Part shown: one piece after another, positions 3,201-23,589 of the stretch
Position numbering within the stretch: position 1 is the stretch's first letter
Layout: each line of letters starts with the position of its first letter
DNA from: Baffinella frigidus
Taxonomy: Eukaryota > Cryptophyceae > Cryptomonadales > Baffinellaceae
DNA length: 23,779 bases
Direction: 5' to 3'
NCBI GenBank assembly: GCA_026770585.1
Contig: MU646458.1
Span: 411,655-435,433, forward strand
Translations under genes and position numbers: made by a program
Notes under the pieces: model-generated
Seen by the model: only the letters and a program-made list of their open reading frames with translations
What the model was told of the DNA's origin: nothing
Databases searched by the model: none

Positions 3201-3286
3201 TGCCATTTTTTTTGTTAAGGGCAGTTCCACGCCAAATTGCAGGTGGGGGCTGATTGTTTTAAACCGCGTCTGAAAGCGGTTGTTGA

Positions 3287-3352
3287 CTTTGGAAAACCAC
3301 TGCCCTCAGGAGGAATCGACTTTTGGCGACCCCTTCCAAGGCTCTGGCGTGG
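3287..3352 (+). repeat. Dispersed repeat copy 1
   Basis: GAAAACCACTGCC, a GACTTTTGGCGA core and CTCTGGCGTGG are shared in the same order and spacing with 9413-9480, which lies inside intron 7 of the NmrA-like gene. The remainder, 3353-3660, shows nothing recognisable. Confidence 0.8.
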
Positions 3353-4067: not shown

Positions 4068-4102
4068 CTGCACAGGGGGTTTAGGATTCACGGTTTAGGG
4101 TT

Positions 4103-4344
4103 AGATCTCAGCTCAGTTTACGGTTAGATCTCAGCTCATGGGGTTTCAGGGGCAGATTTCAGCTCAGTGAATTGAGGGGCAGATCTCAGCTCAGTGGTGT
4201 TGAGGTCAAATCTCAGCTCAGTGGGTTCAGGGGCAGATCTCAGCTCTGTGAATTGAGGGGCAGATCCCAGCTCAGTGAATTTGAGGTAGGATCTCAGCTC
4301 AGTGGGTTTACGGTTAGATCTCAGCTCAGTGGGTTCTGGGTTAG
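4103..4344. repeat. Minisatellite with AGATCTCAGCTCAGTG core
   Basis: About ten tandem units of 22-27 bases. Each holds AGATCTCAGCTCAGTG followed by a variable GGGTTTAGGGGC- or AATTGAGGGGC-like tail, so the tail itself resembles the TTTAGGG heptamer. Open frames on both strands simply read the repeat. The stretch 4345-4769 after it has no gene I can support. Confidence 0.95.
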
Positions 4345-4769: not shown

Positions 4770-4914
4770 CTAGCTCTGCCTCACTCCGGCTGACCGACTA
4801 TTCTCAAGTTGACATGCTGGGCGTGCGGTAAAAATCCGACAACTTTGGGGCGGAAAAGACCCCGGGCTCACCAAATTGGGCTCATCAAAGTGGTGAGCAC
4901 TGAGACAGAGCTAG
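4770..4914 (+). mobile_element. MITE-like element A, copy 1
   Basis: 145-base element with terminal inverted repeats CTAGCTCTGCCTCA (4770-4783) and TGAGACAGAGCTAG (4901-4914), one mismatch in 14. The internal sequence includes GTTGACATGCTGGGCGTGCG and CAACTTTGGGGCGGAAAAGA. A second copy lies at 11123-11258 and a degraded reverse copy at 19380-19557. It has no coding capacity, as expected of a non-autonomous DNA element; the superfamily is not determined. Confidence 0.8.
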
Positions 4915-4919
4915 TTAGG

Positions 4920-5601
4920 TGTCCTGACCTGAGGAGGCGCTTCTCTCCTTCCCCGCTTCTTCTCCAGCCCTGGATCTGGGCTCGCGCGCTTTGCCAGTGC
5001 AACTGCACGGATCGCCTCGAACAGGGCCCCTTGTCCGGGTCGTACAGCGCCTCGAACGGGGGGGCCTGATCGCCCCCCCCCCGGCATCGCCCCTCCGGCC
5101 CGGGGCAGTGCGCCCCCCCCCCCCTCCACGTGGACCGCGGGTGTTCAGACAAGCCGATGCGGCCACTCAGCGCTGAGTCTCCCAGGCCGATAGGGCCGGT
5201 GGCCCCTACCACAGGGACTCACACAAACCAACCGATTCAGGGGAAAGCTCCGGCCGTGGTCGTGTGCCACTGATCCCGCTGCTCCTCACGGGCAGGCAAC
5301 ACGCCTCGGGGCTAGACACAACTGATGAGGATGAGACAACGGACGGAAGACCCCTTGGAGCGTAAGATTTTTTTCTTCAACAGCTCGTCACGTCGTCTGA
5401 GAACGTCCATCTACAATCAAAGTCACTTTTTGTACTACAAGCTCGTAGTCATCTCTAAAAGTGGACGATTGTTGTACACATTTTAAAATTACTCTGGTTT
5501 GTTTTGTATATTTAACCTTCCGGAGGCGGGCCCAACCGCAAAAGTCAACTCTGTCAACTTTGGGCAAAATCCTAAAGATCTGTCAACTTATGAACTTACA
5601 G
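4920..5601. other. Spacer without a supported gene
   Basis: GC-rich stretch with C and G homopolymers (5070-5125) that create overlapping open frames on both strands, then an A/T-richer part. Several GTCAACTT motifs occur at 5548-5590. Nothing coding is recognised. Confidence 0.6.
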
Positions 5602-5725: not shown

Positions 5726-8700
5726 ATGGTGAATGCGGCGGCTGCAGATGAGGAGCGGCTGCTTGTGCTGGGCGCGACCGGGAACGTCGGGCGCCACGTT
5801 ATTGCGAGGTGGGTTTCAGGCCGGGACCGGGGGGGTCCTCTCTTTACCGTTTGAGGAATGTTGTTGTGAGGTAAAGGCAGGATCCCCCCTGCGTACAAAA
5901 GAAATCGTTGCCTCCACCCGGCATCTCGTTCTCGTGCAGGGCAACCTCGGCAGGCTCGTGCTTCTCGCGGGGGCTGGCCGCCTGTCGCAGCGCGTGCGGA
6001 CCAGGATCCCCTCTGAATACACATACAAAAAAACATGATTGCCTCGACCCGGCAGCGCGTGCTCATGCAGCTTGGGCAACCTCGGCAGGCTCGTGTTTCT
6101 CGCGGGGGCTGGCCGCACGTCGCAGCGCGTGCGGATCCTTGCGGCCACCCGCCAGCCAGGCGCCTACAGCTGCGACCCGCCTCCGGAGGGTTGTCCGGCA
6201 GTCGTCGAGCCGGTCCTCCCCTCTCCCTGATTCAGTCCGACGACCCTCCGCCTCAACGAAGCCATGCAAGCTTCCCCCAAAATCGTGGCCTCCCCCTCCT
6301 CACGCATCGATGTGCTCCTGGTGCAAGCTCATAGGGAAACTCCTGGAAAGTTGGGTAGTTTCCCTACGGAATTAGGTAGGACGTAGCTACCGTAGGCCGC
6401 AGGTCTCCTAGGACCTCCTTTCCTACGAGCCCTCGGCCTACAGTAGGAGGTCCTAGGCAATGCCGTAGGCGAAACTACCTTCATTTTCGGGAGTTTTACG
6501 ACTAAAGCCTCCCAAGAGAAGTGATGGATCCTTCCGTGCCGCAGCGGATTCTTCTTCCTCTTGGTTACTCTCGGTACAGGTCCTCGGTAGGGCCTGACGC
6601 CTCGCGCGCAGGTGGCATGCGGCGCATCGGCGGGAGAGGTGGCGGCGTGCGTGGCGGCAGCGCGGCCCACGCGCATCTTCCTCTGCATGCCCCAGGTCCG
6701 TGCACCTCCTCCACTCGCCCTCCGAGGTGCCTCAAACATTGCCCTGCAACCTTTTAGATTTGCCTGGACAGCGGGGTCGGATCCGACCCCGTAAGGTCGA
6801 AAGTTGAGACATTTTCATAGGGAAATCAACTTTTGGAAATATGTTGCAGAGCACTATTTGAGCCACCTCGGAGGGCAGGTTGCTGACGCTTCTGGGATCC
6901 CGACCAACTTAACTTGCCTCCCAATATGGGACAGATTCATGGGCGAGGATATGCAATTTAAACTGTGTTTTTGCTATCTTGGGGTGGGGTTTGTCCTGTG
7001 ACAAAGCTATGACGACTCTACAAGCAAAATCTGACAAAATCCCCCCTTGAGATACTACGCGGGATCACGTCCAGGGTTTAAGATTTCCCAAGGGAAGCAA
7101 AGGTTCCGTTGGTTTGGGGCCATTTTGGCAACTTTCTGCACATTCTGGCGGGTCAGATCTTCGCGCTGGAGCATTTTTAAAACCTCGGTTTTACAATTGA
7201 ACGGAGCCCGACCTGAATCCGGTCGGCGTTTCTCCTTTTAAAACACTTGTTGGGCGCCCTGCTTACACTTTATCCAAAACCAGAAATTCTCTCAACCCCG
7301 AACTGAGTCCCGCGTAGTAGCATAAAAGGCGGTTTAAATTGCATGGCCCCGGACACTAAGATGACAGTAAGCATGCCCCCGCACGTACCCAGGGATCCAG
7401 CGACGCTGAGTGTTGTTGTTTTTTGGGGGGGGGGGGCGGAAAGATATCTCGTGGGAGGTCGCGGTGCCATATCGTCGAAAGGAGATCTAGCGCTGTATCA
7501 GTCTCTTTGGGCTGGAATAATAAATTGGGCTGGAATAACAGATGTCTCTCGGTGTGCCCTTTGGAGGCGATGTCCGCTGACGGGATGCGAGCGTACGGCG
7601 AAGCGGTGGTCGAAACACCGCCAAAAGTCGACGTGTTTAGTACCACGAACCCAGGATGTTAATTTACGAATAGTCTCTCTGCGGGGTTGGCGTGGCTCGT
7701 GCGGCTCTCCTCGTGCGGCATCGACTGAGACTTGATTGCACGAACCATGAAATTAATGCGACCAGAGAGGGCTCGAAGTGTGAAAGTGAAGGTCTCACGG
7801 CTAATGCCTGAGAGCGTTATCACTGAACGTTAATGCGCCCCCGCACAGGCGCTGTCAGCGGACGAGATGCGAGCGTACAGCGAAGCCGTGGTCGACGCGG
7901 CTGTTGCGTGCGGAGTGGCGTGGCTCGTAACCCCCGAAACCCGAAACCCGGAACCCGGAACCCGGAACCCGGAACCCGAAACCCGGAACAATCCCGGAAC
8001 ACCGAACACCGAACACCGAACACCGAACCAGAAACCCGAAACCCGAAACCAGGTGCGGCTCTCGTCGTGCGGCATCGACCGCGCGCCGTCGCAGGTCCTA
8101 GACCCCGGAGAGATTGATAATATATTGCCAAACAACCAGCGTCAGCGCCGCACATGCTACGCATTGTGCCACTACTGTACCCCGTGTCTGCCGCTCATAC
8201 GAGCATTTTCCGGATGGATTCTAACTCCACCTCCTACTAGACCCCGGATGAACCACACGCCAGGCACGGGCGATGTACCACCACGAGGATGGCGTAATAG
8301 GCAGTGGACTGGGTGATCCATACTACCTAGCGGCACCACTCTCTGGGGTGGTTGCAGGTGTGGTGAAACCAACCAGGAAGAACTTGGCCAATTGCTGAGA
8401 TGCCGACTTCAATGTGTACCACTAAGCTCGATCCGGTGCGTTTTCAAGCTGCCTAACAAGGTTTACAACTTTTTGAAAATGAAGAGAATGGTTCGACGGC
8501 TTAAATACAATTAAATATCATCCGGGCGAGTATTTACAATGAATACGATTTCGGGGATCTACGATCCGGTTTGAAACAAATATTACTACGCGCACGTGAC
8601 CGGAAGCTCCAGGTGTGCAGTAAATTTCGTTGCCGAATCGTATTTATCATAAGTACTCGCCGCGATGAAATATTTTCTCCTCGAGAGAAGGCTTCCCCCC

Positions 8701-11700
8701 CCCCCCCGGCATTTTTTGTTCTGTCTCACACGAACTCGACTCGCCGTAAAACGCGTTTCAGTGATGCGGTGGATCTGTCGGTCGTGAACAAAGCTCTCTC
8801 TCTCTCTCTCTTACACACACACAGAGAAAGAGAGAGACACACACACTCTCTCTCTCTCGCCCCCCCTCTGGCGCTCACTCTCCCTCTCTCTGCGAGCAGG
8901 GTCCGCTAGGCGATGCACACCTTGCCGGGGAGGAGTACTGCCGCAAAGCTGGAATGGGTCTCACCTCCGTCCGCCCTACGTCCTTCCACACCAACTTTGT
9001 AAGCCGCCCCTACACCCGAACTCCTGAACCCTGAATCCTGAACCCTGAACTGGAACCCGAGACCCAAAACCCTAAACTCTAAACCCTGCACCCGAAAACC
9101 AAAACCCAAAACCCAAAACCATCAAACCTAAACCCGAAACCTGAAACCCTGAACCCTGAACCCGAACCCCAGGAGAAGTACGACGTGGGAAGCATTGCGG
9201 CAGAGTCGGTCTTCCGCTCGCCCCTCGGGCTCACCGCGAAAGTCAACTGGGTCCACTGCAGGTCAGAGAACATTCTACAACATTATAATTGCACCCCCGC
9301 CGAGGCAGTGTACGAAAAAAAAATCCTAATCTTAGGGGGGGGGTCTTCCGCTCGCCCCTCGGGCTCACCGCAAAAGTGAACTGGGTCAACTGCAGGTTGC
9401 GAGCCCCCCCATAACTTTTGAAAACCACTGCCTTGAAGGGGAATAGACTTTTGGCGATCCCTTTGGAGACTCTGGCGTGGTCCCCACTCCACTGCTAGGG
9501 CAAATTTTCTGTATTAGTCAACTCAAGGCGAAAATCGGAAATCAAAGTACACCGAACGTGTATCCGTTTCTGAAGTTGACAGATTTGTGGGGGTGTTGAC
9601 TTTTACAAAATCTCCGGAGTCGCAGTGCACTCTAATCCGGGAAAACGTATTTTTCTTCTAAAAATCTGCAAGGAAAATTACCACTCAAAGGTCACGTCCC
9701 GGAGCATTTGTGCAGTAATATTCATGCAGATTTTTGAAAGACAAGTACTTGTTCCCGGATAAACTCGAGGCTGGAAGAAGAACTATGTTAAAACCCTGGT
9801 CTAACCCTGGTCTACTGGTCTAGTGACGTTGCAGTAAAGCATGAACGCATGCAGGGACATCGGGTAAATGGTCTGCGTGGTGACCTTTCAAACACGCAGG
9901 GACATAGGGTACGTGGTGACCTTGCACACCATTCGGTGACTTTTGATGAAAGCGTCGGTGAGGTTTTATTAATTCTTCCAAAACACGCAGGGACATTGGG
10001 TACGTGGTGGCCTTTCACACCATTCGGTGACTTGTGATGAAAGCTTCGGCGACCTTTCACTGAAGCGTCAAAACACGCAGGGAAATTGGGTACGTGGTAG
10101 CATCGCCCGCCAGCAAACGCCTCTTTTCTGAAGCCCTCCCGCCTCACGTCGAGCGATCCAATCGTCTATGATCCTTATGACGGAGGTCTGTGTTGACGTC
10201 AATTCTTCAAAACACGCAGGGACATTTGGTACGTGGTAACGGCGCTGCTGGCACGTGGGGTGGTAGGAATGATCTACTGGTCTAGTGACGTTTCATTGGG
10301 CATCAAAGCGACGTTTCACAGGTCGTTGCATTGAACATCAAAGCGACGTTTTAGCGACGTTTCATTGAACATGAAAGCATGCTGGCGACCTTTCACTAAA
10401 TCTTCAAACCACACAGGGACATTGGGTACGTGGTAGCAGCGCTGCTGGCATCTCCCATCTCACCTGAAGCCCTCGCGGCCCGCTTCGAGGTTGTCGAGGT
10501 CCGCTCCCTACCAATCCCATGCGGAAACAGATTCGATGGTTGGGGTGTCGGTCAATAACATGTCTTTGCCCGCCAGCAAGCGCCCCTCTCCTGAAGCCTT
10601 CCAGGCGCAGTTGGAGGTTGTCGAGGTCCGATCCCTGCCAATCTACCACTCGAGGCGGACCGTGGCCTTTGCTTACAATCTACAAGTGGGTGCTCAAAAC
10701 CTGTTCGGGAGGGTGTGTACGGCAATTGGTCACGTCCGCCAGCAAATGCCTTTCTCTCCTGAAGCCCTCGAGGCACGCTTCCAAGTTGTCGAGGTCTGAT
10801 CCTAGCTCTGTCTGAGTAAAACTGGACTCGCCATAAATGTATTTTCGTTGCACTTTTGTACTGGATTTCCTGCTCTATATGTATTTGATGGCGAGCAAAG
10901 TTTTACGCGCCTCGAAGCATGGTACGAGGTTGTCCATGATTCGAGGTTGTCGTGGTCCGCTCCCTGCCCAACCACTCGTTGGGCTTCGAGGGTTTCGGAT
11001 TTGAATTTGGAGGTTGATTCTGGGGTGTTACGTGACTAAATTTACACCAGAAAATTATTAAAGTTAATTATCTCTGGGCAAGTTGACTTTTAGTGAAAGG
11101 TCCATGGTCCACCGTGTGGGTACTAGCTCTGCCTTGAGGTTTGCTGACTGTTCTTAAGTTGACATGCCGGGCGTGTAGTGCAAATCCGTCAACTTTGGGG
11201 CAGAAAAGAGCCCGGTCTCACCAAATTGGTGAAACCAAATAGACTGAGACAGGGCTAGATCTGCTCCTGCAGAGAAGCACTCGTGAATGTCCCCAAAGAC
11301 CCGTTACCGTGTCGGGTCTTTGGGGGCATTCACATTTATTCATAGCCAGGTGTCTCGCTATTCATAGCCTACACCCTAACCCTTCATCATTTTCATAGCC
11401 AGACACCTGGCTATGAATTAATGTGCCCGGAAAGGGCCTTCCGAGGGAGGAATCAGCAGACCAAGTTCACCTTGGAGGACAACCGAATCTGTTCCACTAA
11501 TTCGCTCTCCCAAATCATGAGGGGGCCTAACTTCATCGTGGCTGCCCCGACACGTATCTCTCCAATGAAATCACAGGAGCAGGATATTGATGCATCTTTC
11601 TTACGAGACTCGACTGATGGGTGGCCCACAGGCGACGAGACCAGCGAGCAGAGATTCCCGTGAGTTGAATCGCGGCCTGTTACCAGGATACGGGCTCAGA

Positions 11701-13528
11701 AAGCAGCACGGCGTCAACTCACGGGTGGCCCTGCTTTCTTCAGAGATTAAACTCAAGGGTGGCACATGTGCCACATGACACACAGGCTACCAAAGTCAAA
11801 GTCTGAGAGTTAAAGTCTTCGATGCACAGGTTACGGACCCGGCGAGCAGGACTTTCTCGGCGGGTAAGACTACCAACTTGGGGCTGGTGGGCGTCTGTCC
11901 TCGCGTCTCCCCCTGCACTGGTCTAGCGCAACAAAACATGATGCAGTTTTCTTCAGAGATTCAACGCAAGGGTTGTACACAGGTTACGGGCCCGGCGCGC
12001 CGCGATTCCGGTGAGCTGAATCTCGGCCTGTTGCCACCTGTAGAGATTTACTTGACCCTTAAATGAACCCTGGACCTCATCTTCACAGGTTACGGGCCCG
12101 GCGAGCAGCACCCTGTCGGCGGGCGAGATGGCCGCGATGCTCTCTGAGGAGCTTGGCCGCCCTGTGCGCTATGAAGAGGTGTCGCTCTAACCCCGAAATA
12201 CGAAACACGGAACATGATACCCGAAATCTGGAACACGAAACACGACACCCGAAACCCCGTGGGATGCTCTCTGATGAGCGTGGGCGGCCTGTGCGCTGTG
12301 CTAAGCCCGAAACATGATACCCGAAACACGAAACACGAAAACCTGAAACACGAAATACGAAAACCGAAACACGAAACACGAAACCCCGTGGGGAGCTCTC
12401 TGAGGAGTTGGGGAGGCCCGTGCACTATCAAGAGGTCACCCGAAACCCGAACCTCCCCGACCGCCACCACCATCTCTCGCCATTCTGAGCCCTGACCCCT
12501 GATACCGAATTCCTTAACACGAAACCCGAAGCACCAAACACGAAACACGTTCGCTATGAAGAGGTCGCTCGAATCCCGAAACCCGAAACCAGAAACCAGA
12601 AACCAGAAACCCGAAACCAGAAACTCGAAATCAGAAACCCGCGGAGGCGTCGCAGAACCGTGCATCCAGCTTAATTAAAAGAAAAAATGCCTCTACACTC
12701 TACTCCCTAATCCGACACCCTAAACCCTGAACTCTAATCCCACAACCATGAACCCTACACTCCACACCAGGTGCCCGCCCCCCCCTTCCCGGAGTACGAA
12801 GCACTCTGGACGTTCCTGAAAGCAGGGGGCTTCGATCACTCCTCCGACGCCGTCGCCCGCCTCACGGTCTTTCCCCCGAACCCGAAACCATAAAACCTAA
12901 ACCCTGCGCCCTGATCCCTACACCCAAAACCCTGAACCCTCTTGCCCCTCCCCCCCCCCCCNNNNNNNNNNNNNNNNNNNNNNNNNNNNNNNNNNNNNNN
13001 NNNNNNNNNNNNNNNNNNNNNNNNNNNNNNNNNNNNNNNNNNNNNNNNNNNNNNNNNNNNNNNNNNNNNNNNNNNNNNNNNNNNNNNNNNNNNNNNNNNN
13101 NNNNNNNNNNNNNNNNNNNNNNNNNNNNNNNNNNNNNNNNNNNNNNNNNNNNNNNNNNNNNNNNNNNNNNNNNNNNNNNNNNNNNNNNNNNNNNNNNNNN
13201 NNNNNNNNNNNNNNNNNNNNNNNNNCACCACCACCACCTCCTCCACCCCTTGGCAACCCACCTCTTGGTCCTTGCCTCCCTCCCCCCTTCCCCCACCTCC
13301 TGGTCTCCTCTTGGTTATTCCCGCCCCGCCCGCCTCACAGTCTCCCTCCAACCCCTAGACCCAAACCCCAAACCCCAAACCCCAAACCCCAAACCCCAAA
13401 CCCCAAACCCCAAACACCAAACACCAAACACCAAACACCAAACCCCAAACCCTAAACAGGGAGAGGAACCGCTCGGCATGCGGGAGGTAGTGCGCGCGCT
13501 GCGTGCCGAGCTGCAGCCGTCAACTTAA
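5726..13528 (+). CDS. NmrA-like NAD(P)-binding protein, 11 exons, 311 aa
   Basis: Atypical short-chain dehydrogenase (NmrA-like): a Rossmann-fold protein expected to bind NAD(P) as a redox sensor or reductase; substrate unknown. Exons: 5726-5808, 6089-6212, 6612-6695, 7849-7926, 8053-8094, 8900-8998, 9173-9261, 10417-10498, 12089-12178, 12771-12866, 13460-13528. Every intron is GT..AG and all phases agree; the total is 936 nt including TAA. Motifs in order: LVLGATGNVGR (dinucleotide-binding GxxGxxG, residues 13-23), RIFLCMPQ (90-97), VRLSSCGID (124-132), GPLGDAHLAGEEY (138-150), VRPTSFHTNF (161-170), VHCRDIG (197-203, like the family VDVRDIA), VTGPASSTLS (228-237), LGRPVRYEE (249-257), GGFDHSSDAVARLTG (276-290). 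Length is normal for the family. The ATG at 5726 is placed as usual before the first beta strand. Introns hold fold-backs, heptamers and partial exon copies; intron 10 contains the N gap. The protein motifs make it an NmrA-like member with high confidence; the exact function is inferred. Confidence 0.92.
5881..6004 (+). pseudogene. Tandem duplicate of intron 1 end plus exon 2 start
   Basis: A unit of about 124 bases beginning GATCCCC recurs at 6005-6139. Both copies contain CAACCTCGGCAG as acceptor, followed by GCTCGTG and the coding start (RLVLLAGAGR here, RLVFLAGAGR in the used copy at 6089). This upstream copy has an intact acceptor (exon from 5954) but no donor before the next copy begins, so the second copy is the one that joins correctly to exon 3. 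Confidence 0.85.
6333..6498. mobile_element. Fold-back element in intron 2
   Basis: Imperfect terminal inverted repeats: GGTAGTTTCCCTACGG near 6353 pairs with CCGTAGGCGAAACTACC near 6463. Flanking GGAAACTCCTGGAAAG pairs with CATTTTCGGGAGTTTTAC. A perfect inner pair is CCTAGGACCTCCT (6407-6419) with AGGAGGTCCTAGG (6445-6457). No open frame. It is a MITE-like hairpin element. Confidence 0.75.
6772..6791. other. 20-base perfect palindrome in intron 3
   Basis: CGGGGTCGGATCCGACCCCG reads the same on both strands. It lies 76 bases after the intron 3 donor. Function is unknown. Confidence 0.85.
6949..7345. mobile_element. Inverted-repeat element in intron 3
   Basis: ATGCAATTTAAAC with a following TTTTTGCTA near 6951-6977 pairs with TTTTATGCTA and GTTTAAATTGCAT on the opposite strand near 7320-7344. 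A second nested pair is ACTACGCGGGA (7054-7064) with TCCCGCGTAGT (7308-7318). Probably a decayed fold-back element of about 400 bases. Open frames inside are short and not convincing. Confidence 0.55.
7567..7728 (+). pseudogene. Broken copy of exons 4 and 5 lacking their intron
   Basis: 7567-7614 reads AMSADGMRAYGEAVVE in the frame of exon 4 (ALSADEMRAYSEAVVD), with several synonymous differences. Unrelated sequence follows to 7680. Then 7681-7725 reads AGLAWLVRLSSCGID and stops at TGA. In the used gene these residues are split by the 126-base heptamer intron at 7927-8052; here the two sides are directly joined at the exact splice point. It is either a processed copy or a copy that predates the intron. 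Confidence 0.85.
7927..8052 (+). repeat. Heptamer-built intron 4
   Basis: Almost the whole intron consists of CCCGAAA, CCCGGAA and CACCGAA units in separate homogeneous runs, between donor GTAACCC and acceptor GAAACCAG. The repeat phase is seven bases throughout. Confidence 0.9.
8109..8237 (+). repeat. Dispersed repeat B, copy 1 (intron 5)
   Basis: Matches 19747-19877 along its length: AGAGATTG, ATTGCCAAACNACCAGCGTC, CATGC, ATTGTGC, and CCGGATGGATTCTA then CTCCACCTCCTA. Two widely separated copies in one window indicate a dispersed element. No coding frame is shared. Confidence 0.85.
8509..8674. mobile_element. Fold-back element in intron 5
   Basis: Arms TTAAATATCATCCGGGCGAG and GTATTTACAATGAATACGA near 8510-8546 pair with TCGTATTTATCATAAGTAC and CTCGCCGCGATGAAATATTT near 8638-8674. 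Imperfect arms of about 45 bases around a loop of about 90. MITE-like, without open frame. Confidence 0.75.
8794..8892. repeat. CT / CACA / GAGA microsatellites
   Basis: Compound simple repeat (CT)n, (CA)n, (GA)n, (CT)n immediately upstream of exon 6. The polypyrimidine runs sit where the polypyrimidine tract of the acceptor at 8899 should be. Confidence 0.9.
9005..9172 (+). repeat. Heptamer-rich intron 6
   Basis: CCCTGAA, CCCAAAA, CCCGAAA and CCTAAAC units fill the intron from donor GTAAGC to acceptor ACCCCAG. Confidence 0.9.
9343..9395 (+). pseudogene. Copy of the 3' half of exon 7
   Basis: Reads VFRSPLGLTAKVNWVNC with only three base differences from exon 7 (two synonymous, one His to Asn). 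It keeps the donor CAG|GT at 9396, and a possible acceptor CTTAG precedes it at 9335 before a G run. It could act as an alternative exon half or be a decayed duplicate. Confidence 0.85.
9413..9480 (+). repeat. Dispersed repeat copy 2 (intron 7)
   Basis: Same element as 3287-3352: GAAAACCACTGCC, GACTTTTGGCGATCCC and CTCTGGCGTGG in the same order. Confidence 0.8.
9855..10260 (+). pseudogene. Five copies of the exon 8 acceptor and start
   Basis: Copies begin at 9855, 9900, 9991, 10081 and 10220. Each follows CATGCAG or ACACGCAG and starts GGACAT.GGGTA or a close variant, the first bases of exon 8 (coding RDIGYVV). The first has TAA in the fourth codon. Those at 9900 and 9991 diverge after GTGGT. 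The copy at 10220 keeps VTALLA. The intact exon is the sixth, at 10417, which also keeps the correct donor and phase. Confidence 0.9.
10569..10793 (+). pseudogene. Two further copies of the exon 8 end
   Basis: 10569-10624 and 10735-10793 contain CGCCAGCAA, CTCCTGAAGCC and TTGTCGAGGTC, matching the SPEALAARFEVVE end of exon 8 including its donor. Both share a CGCCAGCAAACGCC-like variant with the copy at 10081 but not with the used exon, so they form a sub-family. A last fragment with GAGGTTGTC lies near 10925-10965. Confidence 0.85.
11060..11120 (+). repeat. Dispersed repeat C, copy 1
   Basis: AAAGTTA followed by TGGGCAAGTTGACTTTT and ACCGTGTGG recurs at 13947-14012 (TGGGCAAGTTGACTTTTGAT, ACCGCGTGG). 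It adjoins MITE-like element A. Confidence 0.65.
11123..11258 (+). mobile_element. MITE-like element A, copy 2 (intron 8)
   Basis: Terminal repeats CTAGCTCTGCCTTGA at the left and TGAGACAGGGCTAG at the right, internal GTTGACATGCCGGGCGTG and CAACTTTGGGGCAGAAAAGA. Clearly homologous to 4770-4914. A lone end CTAGCTCTGTCTGA sits at 10803. Confidence 0.8.
11283..11333. other. Strong 21-bp hairpin in intron 8
   Basis: Left arm 11283-11303 (GTGAATG...GACCCG) and right arm 11313-11333 (CGGGTC...CATTCAC) are complementary over 21 positions, with a single G.T-type mismatch and a nine-base loop. The length resembles small-RNA hairpins, but it may equally be a fold-back remnant. Confidence 0.8.
11338..11418. 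other. Second inverted repeat in intron 8
   Basis: ATTCATAGCCAGGTGTCT (11338-11355) and AGACACCTGGCTATGAAT (11401-11418) are perfect reverse complements, 18 bases with a 45-base interval. It lies directly next to the 21-bp hairpin. Confidence 0.85.
11632..12010 (+). pseudogene. Three copies of the exon 9 start in intron 8
   Basis: Blocks start after CACAG at 11632, 11830 and 11983 and encode ATRPASRDS, VTDPASRTFSAG and VTGPARRDS, parallel to VTGPASSTLSAG of exon 9. Each is followed by a good donor (GTGAGT at 11660, GTAAGA at 11864, GTGAGC at 12011), much shorter than the used exon (12089-12178). Flanking sequence with TTTCTTCAGAGATT also repeats, so the unit is about 150-200 bases and includes intron. 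Confidence 0.85.
12186..12640 (+). repeat. Heptamer arrays of intron 9
   Basis: Runs of CACGAAA, CCCGAAA, CCAGAAA and CCCTGAA-like units, interleaved with copies of the exon 9 end. A further short array at 12710-12770 leads into acceptor CACACCAG. Confidence 0.9.
12263..12571 (+). pseudogene. Three copies of the exon 9 end in intron 9
   Basis: 12263-12300 matches the MLSEELGRPVR part with changes (MLSDERGRPVR). 12393-12434 reads ELSEELGRPVHYQE and keeps a donor GTCACC. 12549-12571 keeps VRYEEV only. The middle copy differs from the used exon mostly at synonymous positions (for example CGC to AGG, CTT to TTG), so it seems to have been coding after it diverged. Confidence 0.85.
12962..13225. 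other. Assembly gap (264 N)
   Basis: Unknown bases inside intron 10, starting after a C homopolymer. Sequence on both sides is heptamer-rich or C-rich, so the true length of the intron is unknown. Confidence 1.
13327..13353 (+). pseudogene. Short copy of the exon 10 end
   Basis: CGCCCGCCTCACAGTCTCCC after the gap matches CGCCCGCCTCACGGTCTTTC at the exon 10 / intron 10 boundary (12853-12872), including the following C-rich heptamers. The donor G is changed, so it is not usable. More of the copy may lie in the gap. Confidence 0.55.
13360..13459 (+). repeat. CCCCAAA / CACCAAA heptamers of intron 10
   Basis: Homogeneous run of CCCCAAA followed by a run of CACCAAA, ending in acceptor CTAAACAG before exon 11. 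Confidence 0.95.
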
Positions 13529-13652
13529 GAGAAACGGCAACTTAAGATCGAGAGATAAAGTGACTTGACTTGAGAGGGCGTGAGACCCGAGGCGGGCAAT
13601 CTCGAAAGCTCCAATGGCTCCAATGGCTCAGGAGGAAGGAGTAGAGGGGCTA

Positions 13653-13749
13653 CTCGCTCATAAGAAAGCACCCCCCCCGGGACCATCATAGGGCCCTTGG
13701 CATAGGCCTACTGCAGGGTCCTAGGGGGTGGCGCTTTCTTATGAGCGAG
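13653..13749. mobile_element. Fold-back element family F, copy 1
   Basis: Perfect terminal inverted repeats CTCGCTCATAAGAAA (13653-13667) and TTTCTTATGAGCGAG (13735-13749), with a C/G-rich interior containing GGACCATCATAGGG and GGGTCCTAGG. Same family as 14216-14316. Confidence 0.85.
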
Positions 13750-13946
13750 GTTCCCCTGTACAGGGGTTACTCGCTACGCTCCAGTGAGAGAGAAAAGTGC
13801 GTTTATTACTGATCGAAACCGACATGGCCACCATGTATCCCCTGCCGGTAAATGTGTGGCCTCGCTTCACACGGTGGACTACGAGGGATTTTGGGGGGCC
13901 AGATTTCGGGGGGTAACGTGAACCATTTGCATTAGGGCAGCCTCAA

Positions 13947-14012: not shown

Positions 14013-14053
14013 CCTTGTTGGAGTACCACTGCATGTAACCTCTGCAGGATTTA

Positions 14054-14138
14054 CTCGAAATTAAGGACACGCACCGCCCCTAAGGTGGTACTAGCCCTAC
14101 CTTAGGGCCCTAGGGAGGTGCGAGTCCTTATTTGCGAG
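14054..14138. mobile_element. Fold-back element family F, divergent copy 2
   Basis: Ends CTCGAAATTAAGGACACGCA and TGCGAGTCCTTATTTGCGAG are imperfect inverted repeats, with CTAGCCCTACCTTAGGGCC inside. The left end is repeated alone at 14329-14355, and a right end alone (CTTCCTTTTGAGCGAG) sits at 14180-14195. Confidence 0.7.
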
Positions 14139-14215
14139 TAACCCCTGAACAGACTACTGTAGGTTCGTTGGGGGGTGCGCTTCCTTTTGAGCGAGGTACA
14201 GGGGTACAGGGATAC

Positions 14216-14316
14216 CTCGCTCATAAGAAACTGCCCCCCCCCCCTAGGACCACCATAGGACCCCAGGCATGATCCTACTGTAGGGTCCTAGGGAAAGGCG
14301 GTTTCTTATGAGCGAG
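14216..14316. mobile_element. Fold-back element family F, copy 3
   Basis: CTCGCTCATAAGAAA at 14216-14230 and TTTCTTATGAGCGAG at 14302-14316, perfect inverted repeats. The interior GGACCACCATAGGACCCC matches copy 1. Flanks TAC and GTACCCCTG suggest insertion next to or into related sequence. Confidence 0.85.
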
Positions 14317-14339
14317 GTACCCCTGTAGCTCGAAATTAA

Positions 14340-14580
14340 GGACACGCACCGCCTTAGGGTCTTCCATCTGCGCTCCATGGAACAAATGCAACAGAGGTTT
14401 CTCATGCGGTTTATACATGCCGGACTGCGAGAAGGCCTGGCCGCAGGTCTCGCTCCACGCCATGCATTTTTTGGAGCTCTATGCAGGGTTGCCGCACGCC
14501 AGCTCAATCGTGCTGTCTTTGCAAGAAGAGCACCATGATCCCATTCCCCCGAATGTAGGTCCTTCAGGTTTTTCGAGCTG
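14340..14580 (-). other. Cys-rich open stretch on minus strand, possibly a broken gene
   Basis: On the minus strand 14463-14341 starts with ATG and reads MAWSETCGQAFSQSGM followed by YKPHEKPLLHLFHGAQME, which loosely recalls a C2H2 zinc-finger linker. Just upstream in the same direction an open stretch reads GSWCSSCKDSTIELACGNPA before a TAG. It may be a decayed gene fragment or chance; spacing does not fit a complete finger. It lies directly upstream of the WD40 gene on the other strand. Confidence 0.2.
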
Positions 14581-14589
14581 CCAACATAG

Positions 14590-15494
14590 GCGGTCGCGAG
14601 CGGGGCGTTGCACAGGGTGGGGGCCGCGCACGACGGAACTGGTGCGTGCATCTACGGGGTGCCCGGTCTGGGTCACCCACTGGTGGTGCAGGAAGGATGC
14701 CCGGTAGTGGCGCACACGGAGGGGCTACGCGCGGTGGTTTTCTCGCCGTGCGGACCGAGGCTTGCCGCCGGGGGGTTGGACTACACAGTGATCCTGTGGG
14801 ACGCTCAGACAGGCGAGGCGGCACATCGCATGTCGGGACACTGTGATCGTGTCGTCTCTGTCTCCTTCTCGGCGGATGGGGCGCGGCTGGCGAGCGGAAG
14901 TTTCGATGCGTCCGTTCGCGTCTGGGGCGTGACAACTGGGGCGTTGCTCCGTACGATACCAGACGCTCACAAGATTTCCGTGTACTGCGTGTACTTTTCT
15001 CCTACAAACAATCGAATAATCGCTACCTCGGGATACACGCAGTGTTCTCTGTGGGACGTCGACACCGGCCACAGGATCAGGATTGTTGGGGGGAATTGTG
15101 TTCGGTGTTTTCACCGGACGGACGCACGATCGCGACCACCAACTCCGCACATCACATGCTCTTGGTCAATGCTGAGACGGGAGAATTGGTGTCCAGCATG
15201 GTCGGCCACCAGCGATTGGTTGTGTCGGCCTCGTTCTCGGTCGACGACGGGAGCAAGCTCGCCTCGGGCAGCGTCGACGGCACTTGCAAGGTGTGGGATC
15301 TGTCGACCGGGGCGCTCCTCCGGACCATTGAGGTTGGAACAGCGGTCTGGTCTGTGACGTGGGGGCGAGACTGGGTGCGGGACACGCAGAGGGGCGTGGC
15401 TTTCGCGATGGGGCACCACCCGCGGCTCGGGGCGGCGTCTCAGGTTTCAGAGCTGGAGCCGGGGCTGCTTCAGATGATCCTGGACCGGGTGTGA
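14590..15494 (+). CDS. WD40-repeat protein, frameshifted; 5' end uncertain
   Basis: A beta-propeller scaffold protein; partner unknown. Frame 1 runs from about 14590 (after a TAG that is also a possible acceptor AG) to the G6 run at 15088-15093; frame 3 then continues to TGA at 15492. Four repeats end in the usual Trp-Asp position: VILWDAQTGE, VRVWGVTTGA (Trp-Gly variant), CSLWDVDTGH and, after the shift, CKVWDLSTGA. Between the last two lies a Trp-less repeat (SVFSPDGRTIATT, LLVNAETGE). The typical SFSADGARLASGS strands precede them. A sixth half repeat and LEPGLLQMILDRV close the protein. One extra G in the run restores the frame, so a sequencing or assembly error is likely; a recent pseudogene is possible. 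No convincing ATG precedes repeat 1, so an upstream exon is probably missing. No introns are needed within the block, unlike the neighbouring genes. Confidence 0.85.
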
Positions 15495-19379: not shown

Positions 19380-19557
19380 GGACAGATCTAAGCCGACACC
19401 AGAACCACGGCAACCATCTACGTCTATTTGCGCTCACCAACTCGGTGAGACCGTTCTTGTTCGCTCCAAAGTTGACGGATTTGTACCGCAAGCCCAGCAT
19501 GTCAACTTCCACCATAGGCGGACACAGGAACTTAACAGTCGGGGGAGGCAGAGCGAG
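19380..19557 (-). mobile_element. MITE-like element A, degraded reverse copy
   Basis: On the minus strand it carries CTCTGCCTCC near the start, GTTGACATGCTGGGCTTGCG (19484-19503) and ATCCGTCAACTTTG, matching the inside of 4770-4914 and 11123-11258. Ends are poorly preserved. Confidence 0.65.
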
Positions 19558-19746
19558 AGCCCCAGAAAACACCGCACTCGTCGCCACTCTTGAGAACCGG
19601 CCGCTGCTTTCTATTCGAGCTACGCCAGCTTCGATGATGAAGTGGGAGTCACGTTACTCGAGATGGGCATTTTGCAGCCAAATCGGTTCCTGGGGGAGAC
19701 CCAAGACCCCAGACCCTCACCCCTTTGAGCTACTCCAGCTTTAAAA

Positions 19747-19877
19747 GAGATTGGTGATTTATTGCCAAACCACCAGCGTCAGCGCTGCACATGCCTTCCG
19801 AATTGTGCTACATACTGTACTCTGTCTCGGCCGCTCTTACGAGATTTCCCCGGATGGATTCTATCTCCACCTCCTAC
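19747..19877 (+). repeat. Dispersed repeat B, copy 2
   Basis: Homologous to 8109-8237 in intron 5 of the NmrA-like gene, in the same orientation. Confidence 0.85.
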
Positions 19878-21550: not shown

Positions 21551-23589
21551 ATGAACTCCTCCACCGTTCATCTGGTGGAGGGCCTCACCTGGTGGGTCGC
21601 GGAGGCCGACGACACCGCCACCTCAAAAAAATCCCAGGACCTCGCAGGGGTGGGCATCGGCATCGAACAACAGGCCTGCGGATCTGACGGGGGCGAGCGG
21701 ACCGTCGTGCGGCGGGTGGTCGCCGGGAGGCCGGCGCACCGCAGCGGGAAGGTGGGGATCCTGGGCGCCGTGGAGGCATCTGGGTCCAGGGCCAGGGGCA
21801 TCGGGATGCTTTGGAGCGCGGGTGGAGGTCAAGGGGGTGCATGGTTGGCTGTGAGCGGGGTTGGTCGATGGTGACAGATGGGGAGGGTGTTCAGGTGGCC
21901 GTTGGCGGCGAGGTCGTCGCGGTTCATTTGAATACCCCCCCCGAGAGCCCTCCGTGGTAGGGACCATTTCCAGTTAAATTAAACATGTCCCCGAACGCAG
22001 GTGGCCGTTGGCGACGAGGTGGTCGCGGTGAACCCCAAACCCTGACCCTAAACCCTAAACCCTAAACCCTAAACCCCAAACCTCAAAACCCAAACCCTAA
22101 ACCCTAAACCAGGTTGATGGGAACTTCCTGCCGATTCTCGTCGCGGAAGGTGCAGCTTCAACACCAAACCCCAAACCCCACACCCCATACCCCATACCCC
22201 AAACCCCTGACCCCTCAACCGTAAACCCCGAACCCCGAAACCCTCCCCCCCAAACCCCACCCCCGACCCCCAAACCCCAACAGGACGAATCGATTCGGGG
22301 AGGAAACCGAGCGGGGCGCTAGTAGTCGCGACGCTGCTTGGGCAGTTGGAGGGGGAGGCAGGCAGTCCTGTGGCTCTCACGCTCCGGAGGGGGGGGGAGG
22401 TCAGCCCCTAGCCTCTCAACCCTACGCCCTACACCCTCAACCCTACACCCTACACCCTGCACCCTACACCCTACACCCTAAACCCTGCACCCTAAAACCC
22501 CACAACCCCTCTCACGCTCCGCACGGGGGAGAGGGGTGAAAACCGAAACCCGAAACCTTAAACCCTAGACTCCAGACCCTAAACCCTCAACTCTAAACCC
22601 TAAACCCTAAACCCTAAACCCTAAACCCTAAACCCCAAACTCCTCACCCCCAAACACGAAACCCTAAACTCTAAACCCTAAACCTTGAACCCTGAGCACC
22701 AAACCAGGTGTGCACAGTAGAGCTTCTGCGAAGGCCGCACGATTTCTCAGGAACCCTAACCCCTAAACCCTAAACGCTAACCCCTAAATCCTATACCCTA
22801 AACCCTAAGCTGTAAACCCCAACCCCTAAATCCTAAACCCTAAGCCCCAAGCTCAAGCCCCCAAACCCCAACCCCTAAACCCTAAACCCTAAACCCTAAA
22901 ACCAGGCTCAACCCCTGTCCCGTCGCCGAGGTGGGAGGAGGTCAAACCCTCAACCCTCAACCCGAAACCCGAAACCCTAAACCCTAAACCTTAAACCCTA
23001 AACCCTCGACCCTCAACCCTCAACCCGAAACCCTTAACCCTTAAACCTGAACCCTAAACCCTAAACCCTAAACCCTAGACCTGAAACCCGAAACTTCAAC
23101 CCCGAAACCAGAAACCAGAAACCAGAAACCAGAAACCCTGAACACTAAACCCTCACCCCCAAACCCTGAACTTTGAACCCTGAACCCTGAACCCTGAACC
23201 CAACCCCCTTCGCACGAGGAGGACAGGTGGGGGGGCGGTGAAGCCTTAAACCCTCAACCCCACATATTGAACCTTGAACCCAAACCCTCAAACCCGAAAC
23301 CCTGAACCCCAAACCCTAAACCCTAAACTCCAAACCCTAACCCCCAAACCACAACCCCCAAACCCTAAACCCCAAAACCAAAGCCCTAAACCCTCAACCT
23401 TAAACCTTACACCCAAGACCCAAGCCCCAAACCCTCAACCCCAAACCCTAAACCCCAAACCCTAAACCCCAACCTATAAACCCTCAACCCTCAACCCCCA
23501 ACCCCGAACCCTAAACACCAAATTCTAAACTGAGCAGGAGAGGGGAGCGGGGGTCGGTGACGAGATTTCGCATGCGTCCACGCAGGGTG
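21551..23589 (+). CDS. PDZ-domain protein, 5' part, continues past the window
   Basis: PDZ domains bind C-terminal peptides and act in scaffolds or proteases; the partner is unknown. Exons: 21551-21751, 22001-22027, 22113-22149, 22284-22399, 22708-22750, 22906-22940, 23538-23589. The first four and the start of the fifth join in phase into one domain: GVGIGIEQ (carboxylate-binding region), VVRRVVAGRPAHRSGKV, VAVGDEVVAVDGNFLP, VATLLGQLEGEAGSPVALTL, RRGGEVCTVELLRRP, the usual PDZ order of strands and helices. The last two exons are less certain; the final one has GVGDEI. The ATG at 21551 has a fair context (GCGCCATGA), but a TTGCAG acceptor just before it allows an upstream exon. The fifth intron would start with GA rather than GT, although the phase across it fits. 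Introns are C-rich heptamers on the coding strand. Domain call is firm; total structure is partial. Confidence 0.75.
21895..21921 (+). pseudogene. Duplicate of the 27-nt PDZ exon 2
   Basis: Follows acceptor TTCAG and encodes VAVGGEVVA, ends at donor GTTCAT. The used exon at 22001-22027 encodes VAVGDEVVA. The two differ by one amino-acid change (Gly/Asp in the GDE turn of the PDZ fold) and one synonymous base. Same length and phase, so they could be mutually exclusive exons. I used the downstream copy because GDE is the family consensus. Confidence 0.8.

Follow-up and report, generated by a model that had tools for sequence, protein, structure and literature searches.

The closest known system to the one described here is that of the amphioxus 'mirages', and similar repeats are found in PGBD5. 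In mirages, as they are presented in the original accounts, the repeated units lie across the 5′ or 3′ borders of exons and measure 10 to 160 bp, and many of them carry duplicate splice signals while splicing stays intact (PMC3087553; PMC3902484). In potato, the report on an RdRp gene describes one tandem duplication across an intron-exon border (PMC4974935). The AGGT tandem genomic duplication model, as formulated in its source, holds that local duplication yields extra splice sites and intron gain (PMC3443670). Exon-like sequence within introns is treated both by Exonize and by Ivanov and Pervouchine, and the former reports intronic and inter-boundary matches as classes (PMC9013439, PMC12343006). 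A search of the literature for boundary duplications, exon remnants, mirages and telomere-like intron gain returned mirages from amphioxus only, together with the one related case from potato. Introner-type introns are characterised by many similar introns, often with terminal inverted repeats, that occur genome-wide. The sequence-only reading of the DNA analysed here had reported partial copies of exons in the introns of one gene and knew of no named process behind them. Such structures already have a name in amphioxus, and the potato duplication crosses a boundary too.

The NmrA-like gene and its exon copies

The window, that is, the whole stretch of 23,779 nucleotides of Baffinella frigidus DNA that was analysed, contains a complete NmrA-like gene (5726..13528, + strand) with 11 exons, ten GT-AG introns and a product of 311 aa, assigned to the NmrA family by Pfam (PF05368, E 7.3e-11). 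Splicing support for this gene consists of one record, judged from the protein. P0001, a JGI protein of 310 aa from a contig of 1,581 bases, is 100% identical to the spliced model over 310/310 residues, the missing first Met being the sole difference. It supports all ten junctions, uses the real splice sites only and includes none of the intronic exon copies, hereafter called echoes. Because its coding sequence is uninterrupted on a 1,581-base contig, whereas the gene in the window extends over 7.8 kb with ten introns, P0001 is most simply regarded as derived from mRNA. Normal splicing is undisturbed by the echoes to the extent that this one record, which leaves room for rare misuse, equals the echo-free model. 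Among the further homologues in the protein search are a transcript from MMETSP and two EukProt entries labelled COSAG, whereas viral_contigs and genome_contigs contained no relatives of P0001. One paper gives the COSAG label to Picozoa single-cell genomes, COSAG01 and COSAG02 (PMC10268365), and homologues of this kind suggest a microbial eukaryote as the source and not an animal.

Comparison of the spliced coding sequence (CDS) with the exon-masked window gave 14 matches at E<=0.01 and 19 at E<=1, against a mean of 0.02 and a maximum of 1 at E<=0.01 in 100 first-order Markov shuffles of the non-exon sequence of the window. When single exons were used as queries, 15 matches at E<=0.01 were obtained, of which 14 lie in introns of the gene, all on the + strand; the other one pairs exon 7 with 5527-5559 (E 0.001), outside the gene. 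The copies had been said to lie next to the matching exon, and 13 of the 14 intronic matches do occupy an intron that touches it. The fourteenth, of exon 5, is located in intron 3, where it adjoins the exon-4 piece upstream of both parent exons. The statement that most later exons are echoed holds clearly for 6 of the 11 (exons 2, 4, 5, 7, 8 and 9, as partial intronic copies); the exon-10 piece is weak, and exons 1, 3, 6 and 11 gave no such match in the single-exon or spliced-CDS searches of the window. Piece by piece, identity to the parent exons ranges from 74 to 96%.

Table 1. Features of the window, with the positions that the sequence-only reading had given for the same echoes
Feature	Position	Strand	Remarks	Earlier position
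NmrA-like gene, exons 1-6	5726-5808, 6089-6212, 6612-6695, 7849-7926, 8053-8094, 8900-8998	+		
NmrA-like gene, exons 7-11	9173-9261, 10417-10498, 12089-12178, 12771-12866, 13460-13528	+		
Exon-2 echo: end of intron 1 and head of exon 2	5878..6000	+		5881-6004
Exons 4+5 echo, two pieces	7565-7613 and 7680-7725	+	in intron 3	7567-7728
Exon-7 tail echo plus GT	9342..9397	+	53/56 bases	9343-9395
Exon-8 head echoes (five)	9850..10253	+	from 9850, 9887, 9946, 10037, 10201	9855-10260
Exon-8 tail echoes with start of intron 8	10586-10643, 10753-10802, 10940-10968	+		10569-10793
Exon-9 head echoes	11825-11864, 11978-12003	+	within 11588..12036	11632-12010
Exon-9 tail echoes with repeat start of intron 9	12263..12580	+	from 12263, 12395, 12549	12263-12571
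Possible exon-10 tail echo	13325..13342	+	15/18 bases, weak; beyond run of N	13327-13353
Intron 4, telomere-like repeat	7927..8052	+	TRF units CCCGAAA and CCCGAAACCCGGAA	
Intron-only families	9808/10270; 10283/10352; 11588/11939 with 11735/11948		10283/10352 is a 35-bp array (TRF)	
Second gene model, complete echo of 27-bp exon 2 (22001-22027) with AG and GT	21895..21921	+	upstream, intron 1	
Second gene model, tail echo of exon 4 (22284-22399)	22509..22529	+	downstream, intron 4	

Most of the positions proposed from the letters alone were recovered (Table 1). The exon-2 echo is 82% identical to its parent copy (6002-6135) over 134 columns, and the duplicated unit is mostly intron. The downstream piece of the exons 4+5 echo crosses the exon 4/5 junction without intron 4 (cds 352-396, 46 columns, 93.5%, E 2.6e-13). 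All five heads of exon 8 are present, the first only at E 0.06 and the last four including the end of intron 7; one copy of this exon is nearly full, with 73/82 bases (10081-10153, 74%). The tails of exon 8 were confirmed and joined by a third at 10940-10968, which gives E 0.22 by CDS and E 2e-6 when the intron flank is included. Before exon 9, the two heads stood, and the remainder of the stretch proposed there includes related intron sequence (11588-11685 to 11939-12036, 75.5%). The tails of exon 9 are three, of which the one at 12263 has lost the junction and the last reaches only E 0.22. The proposed tail of exon 10 proved weak: it gave no match at E<=1 in the spliced-CDS search of the exon-masked window, although 15/18 bases agree at the exon end and 0/2000 shuffles of that stretch did as well.

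A second, PDZ-like gene model (21551-22750; Pfam PF00595, E 3.5e-5) has splicing that is that of the model alone, and it is incomplete, with no GT after its exon 5. Matches at E<=0.01 were obtained for 2/5 of its exons, exon 2 (27 columns, 93%, E 1.6e-7) and the tail of exon 4 (21 columns, 90%, E 0.002), the others giving E 0.15 or worse. Exon 2 of this model is the one case of a whole exon copied with both splice sites; the NmrA-like gene has none. The protein search with this model returned only P0070, an ORF of the window itself. The WD40-like stretch at 14569-15494 gave no echo at E<=0.01 (best E 0.06).

Several other features of the window were recorded. The frame of the WD40-like stretch is split over two overlapping frames (14608-15357, 15042-15494) near a run of G, for which a pseudogene, an intron and a sequencing error are alternatives. 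Dispersed repeats that are 77 to 84% alike (8109-8237 / 19746-19877; 4770-4914 / 11123-11258 / 19422-19508) occur in introns and intergenic DNA. Palindromic, MITE-like elements of about 50 to 130 bp are located at 13641-13761, 14205-14327, 14045-14147, 9635-9760 and 11283-11425. By eye, an array of units of about 20 to 40 bp around 'agatctcagctcagtg' occupies 4100-4340, and 3284-3350 and 9413-9482 share a dispersed stretch whose start follows directly on the exon-7 echo and which may interrupt the array of that echo.

Polarity, arrays and decay of the echoes

The echoes are same-strand direct repeats beside the parent, across the exon-intron border, and they involve seven of the 20 splice-site ends of the gene: the heads of exons 2, 4(+5), 8 and 9 and the tails of exons 7, 8 and 9. 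Heads lie upstream and tails downstream of their parents in 17/17 in-gene matches at E<=1 (10 heads and 7 tails), a count that leaves out the two of the 19 matches outside the gene and scores the 4+5 piece, which also holds the exon-4 tail and lies upstream, as the head of a once-fused exon. By family the rule is followed in 7/7 (p 0.008), and both echoes of the second gene model obey it as well. Tandem duplication across a splice site necessarily produces this polarity, and we see no evident reason for it under retrocopies, transposed fragments or merged paralogues.

Intron columns, between 2 and 76 of them, are present in 15 of the 16 exon-echo pairs; the exon-5 pair was aligned on exon sequence alone. 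The copies had been described as often starting or ending exactly at the splice site. This is a good description of the echoes of exons 4 and 7 (2 intron bases) and of the exon-9 heads (5), and a poor one of the exon-2, exon-8 and exon-9-tail echoes, in which 9 to 76 intron columns are included. Exon-head pieces start 143 or more bases into their introns, none of them at an intron start. A tandem, minisatellite-like arrangement was found in the exon-2 pair, whose copies are one base apart, in a 91-bp array among the exon-8 heads (9890-10098, TRF) and in the exon-9 tails, which lie 127, 256 and 385 bp from the parent with a spacing of about 128 bp. No arrays were seen for the exons 4+5 and exon 7 echoes, each of which is single.

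Over 559 exonic columns, the 16 pairs show 67 differences, of which 29 are synonymous (0.43, 95% CI 0.32-0.55; pairs inside one exon family are non-independent). The share expected for a freely decaying echo facing an exon that accepts only synonymous changes is 0.42, and random changes in the NmrA CDS are synonymous in 0.27 of cases. In the intron columns of the same pairs 54/357 positions differ, so that the rate is 1.26 times that of the exon columns; about 1.6 would be expected under neutral decay, and alignment trimming may explain the shortfall. Indels number 4 in exon columns and 13 in intron columns. The acceptor AG is kept in 10/10 echoes scored and the donor GT in 6/7, the seventh donor row (exon-9, 12566) being mis-indexed; this persistence is favoured by the manner in which the matches were found. 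Overall, the echoes have the features of dead sequence.

Introns, relatives and origin of the echoes

By word list, the telomere-like share is 100% in intron 4, 95% in intron 6, 50% in intron 9 and 37% in intron 10. These introns (7927-8052, 8999-9172, 12179-12770 and 12867-13459) start with GT and end with AG, and TRF units in them are CCCGAAA, ACCCTGA and CCCAAAC. By eye, the introns of the second gene model resemble them. An intron-rich chlorarachniophyte with the telomere TAACCC and 27% GC (PMC12730881) does not match the window.

Comparison with relatives provided an indication of the order of events. P0012 (66% identical; 8 contigs, the longest of 59,936 bases) carries exons 4 to 10 in one ORF, which also holds the last codons of exon 3. 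Introns 4, 6 and 9 are absent from this ORF, and introns 3 to 9 as a whole look absent. Given the length of its longest contig, we infer that the P0012 sequence is genomic DNA. After exon 10 the ORF enters, by eye, unrelated sequence, which suggests that intron 10 is common to both. Further, P0069, the sole protein retrieved in the search with exons 7 to 9, encodes exons 7 and 8 together. The simplest reading of these ORFs is that the introns lacking in the relatives would have been gained in this lineage, loss in the relatives being the alternative. Because both the 4+5 echo and the P0012 ORF are without intron 4, this intron appears younger than the echo, the copying of which is most simply placed at a time when intron 4 was not yet there. 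For exon 2, P0028 (91% identical over 14% of the query; a 5,432-base ENA contig) begins at the end of exon 1, out of frame, and passes through one copy of the repeated unit, not two, into exon 2; in this translated ORF, a single copy of the unit is present and the exon-2 echo seems to be missing from the closer relative. At one codon the exon-2 echo, P0002 and P0028 have L and exon 2 itself has T.

The echoes are probably relics of repeated short tandem duplications spanning the exon-intron boundaries of a working gene. In such a process, duplications would be short, with copies roughly 90 to 280 bp apart. Doubling of an intron end with the head of the next exon would leave the copy joined to the remainder of the exon in use and a spare head upstream; doubling of an exon tail with the start of the intron would leave the first donor in use and a spare tail downstream. 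The spliceosome would skip the spare pieces, which would thus survive in introns and decay about neutrally, and duplications within exons would be purged by selection. Some boundaries, such as the exon 8 head and the exon 9 tail, would have expanded to minisatellite-like arrays. Many introns of the gene look lineage-specific, several of them telomere-like, and the intron-free 4+5 echo would predate the insertion of intron 4. The copies themselves, their polarity, the arrays where these occur, the neutral-like substitutions, the echo-free P0001 and the uninterrupted ORF of P0012 support this reading. The copies outside the visible arrays would likewise be of tandem origin, the duplications and intron gains would have followed one another in the order given, and the process may operate genome-wide. 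Template-switch repair, which the sequence-only reading had put forward as a cause, is a possible molecular route by which the duplications arose.

Several observations count against the tandem reading: the low rate of differences in the intron columns, the mere 2 to 5 intron bases in the echoes of exons 4, 7 and the exon-9 head, the lack of arrays for the exons 4+5 and exon 7 echoes, and the scarcity of duplications away from the exons. Simulated random tandem duplications, subject to selection and decay on random sequence, gave a ratio of anchored to intron-only duplications of 0.29 to 1.45, depending on the assumed age and intron total (5300, 3500 or 2000 bases, the first being an estimate of today's non-repeat intron total), and under a uniform tandem model intron-only duplications should equal or outnumber the anchored ones. 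With the telomere-like sequence masked by word list, the window yielded 14 exon-anchored and 14 non-exon direct pairs; 10/14 of the latter pair echo with echo and were dropped, and the 4 left were grouped by hand into 3 families, all of them in or beside echo arrays, versus 7 anchored families. The probability that at least 7 of 10 are anchored lies between 0.002 and 0.006 if the introns total 5300 bases, and between 0.27 and 0.36 if they total 2000. Divergence builds up faster between two intron copies that both decay than between an echo and its exon, but this ascertainment effect was rejected as the full cause of the exon bias, of which it explains only a part in the simulation. A preference for exon borders, and with it a flank-copying repair at intron birth, is therefore possible. 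In its broadest form, which we hold to be rather unlikely, repair of breaks at or near splice junctions would copy the flanking exons and add telomere-like repeats, so that intron birth and echoes would be one process and the echoes would date the intron gains.

Copying of templated filler from the flanks of a break is a feature of polymerase-theta-like end joining. Applied to this gene, introns 3 and 7 to 9 would have been born from breaks in once-continuous exons, with filler copied from both flanks and mixed with telomere-like repeats, and the echoes would mark the break sites. These introns do look gained, since exons 4 to 10 are uninterrupted in P0012 and exons 7 and 8 are together in P0069; introns 7 and 8 contain copies of both neighbouring exons, the echoes of exons 4, 7 and the exon-9 head end within 2 to 5 bases of the junction, and border copies are possibly in excess. 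However, the exon 2, exon 8 and exon-9-tail echoes carry intron sequence, which places their copying at a time when the intron was already there; copies that nearly abut and arrays of regular spacing are what plain tandem duplication gives; and the 4+5 echo records copying at a place where intron 4 was still missing. This origin is quite improbable.

An assembly artefact, in which haplotypes or paralogues were merged into the contig, had also been suggested. Repeat-rich DNA assembles poorly, and a run of N (12962-13225) lies beside the weakest echo; no further run of N was seen in the gene. Merged copies would tend toward whole exons of similar divergence, whereas the pieces are unequally diverged, mostly partial, of one polarity and partly arrayed, a poor fit that makes this explanation very unlikely. 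The third proposal of the sequence-only reading, a reserve of alternative exons kept by selection, would agree with the retained AG and GT dinucleotides, with the exon-8 copy over most of its length and with the exon-2 echo of the second gene model, which is whole, in frame and flanked by AG and GT. Contrary to this, the remaining NmrA echoes lack one exon end and none of them is used by P0001; because the substitution pattern is close to neutral decay, reserve exons are not supported and we consider them highly improbable. Insertion of reverse-transcribed mRNA pieces near the parent gene is hardly credible: it would account for the 4+5 echo without intron 4, but an intron-free ancestor suffices for that, as the P0012 ORF is also without it, only 1 of the 19 CDS matches spans a junction (by at least 5 bases on either side), intron sequence is present in most echoes, and insertions would not preserve the polarity.

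Comparison with known systems

The AGGT form of intron gain was rejected, as no head copy is present at any intron start; in the simplest form of that model, as its source presents it, a new intron opens with a copy of the head of the next exon, which is not so in the NmrA-like gene. The potato RdRp duplication, according to its report, created a new intron, whereas the NmrA copies sit inside introns. The studies on tandem exons centre on duplicated exons, whereas most NmrA pieces stop inside the exon, the exceptions among the echoes being exon 2 of the second gene model and the one near-full copy of exon 8.

The gene offers a natural test case for the way in which the spliceosome passes over duplicate splice sites close to the real ones. 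Echoes that predate an intron can act as an internal outgroup, showing intron gain and its rough timing without a second species, and should echoes and telomere-like introns prove to go together genome-wide, a mechanism of intron gain becomes testable there.

Like mirages, the NmrA echoes cross both 5′ and 3′ borders, are direct and partly arrayed, and, judged by P0001, leave splicing undisturbed. Differences in copy number between haplotypes are a further criterion of a mirage; the nearest observation for the NmrA-like gene is the one relative that seems to lack the exon-2 echo. Unlike mirages, they involve seven splice-site ends of one gene, are decayed (74 to 96%) and occur together with telomere-like introns. 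Seven echoed ends in a gene of an unrelated-looking genome suggest a broader process than amphioxus alone would indicate. The NmrA echoes are accordingly filed as the same kind of structure as mirages, with more boundaries per gene and, in addition, an echo that dates an intron.
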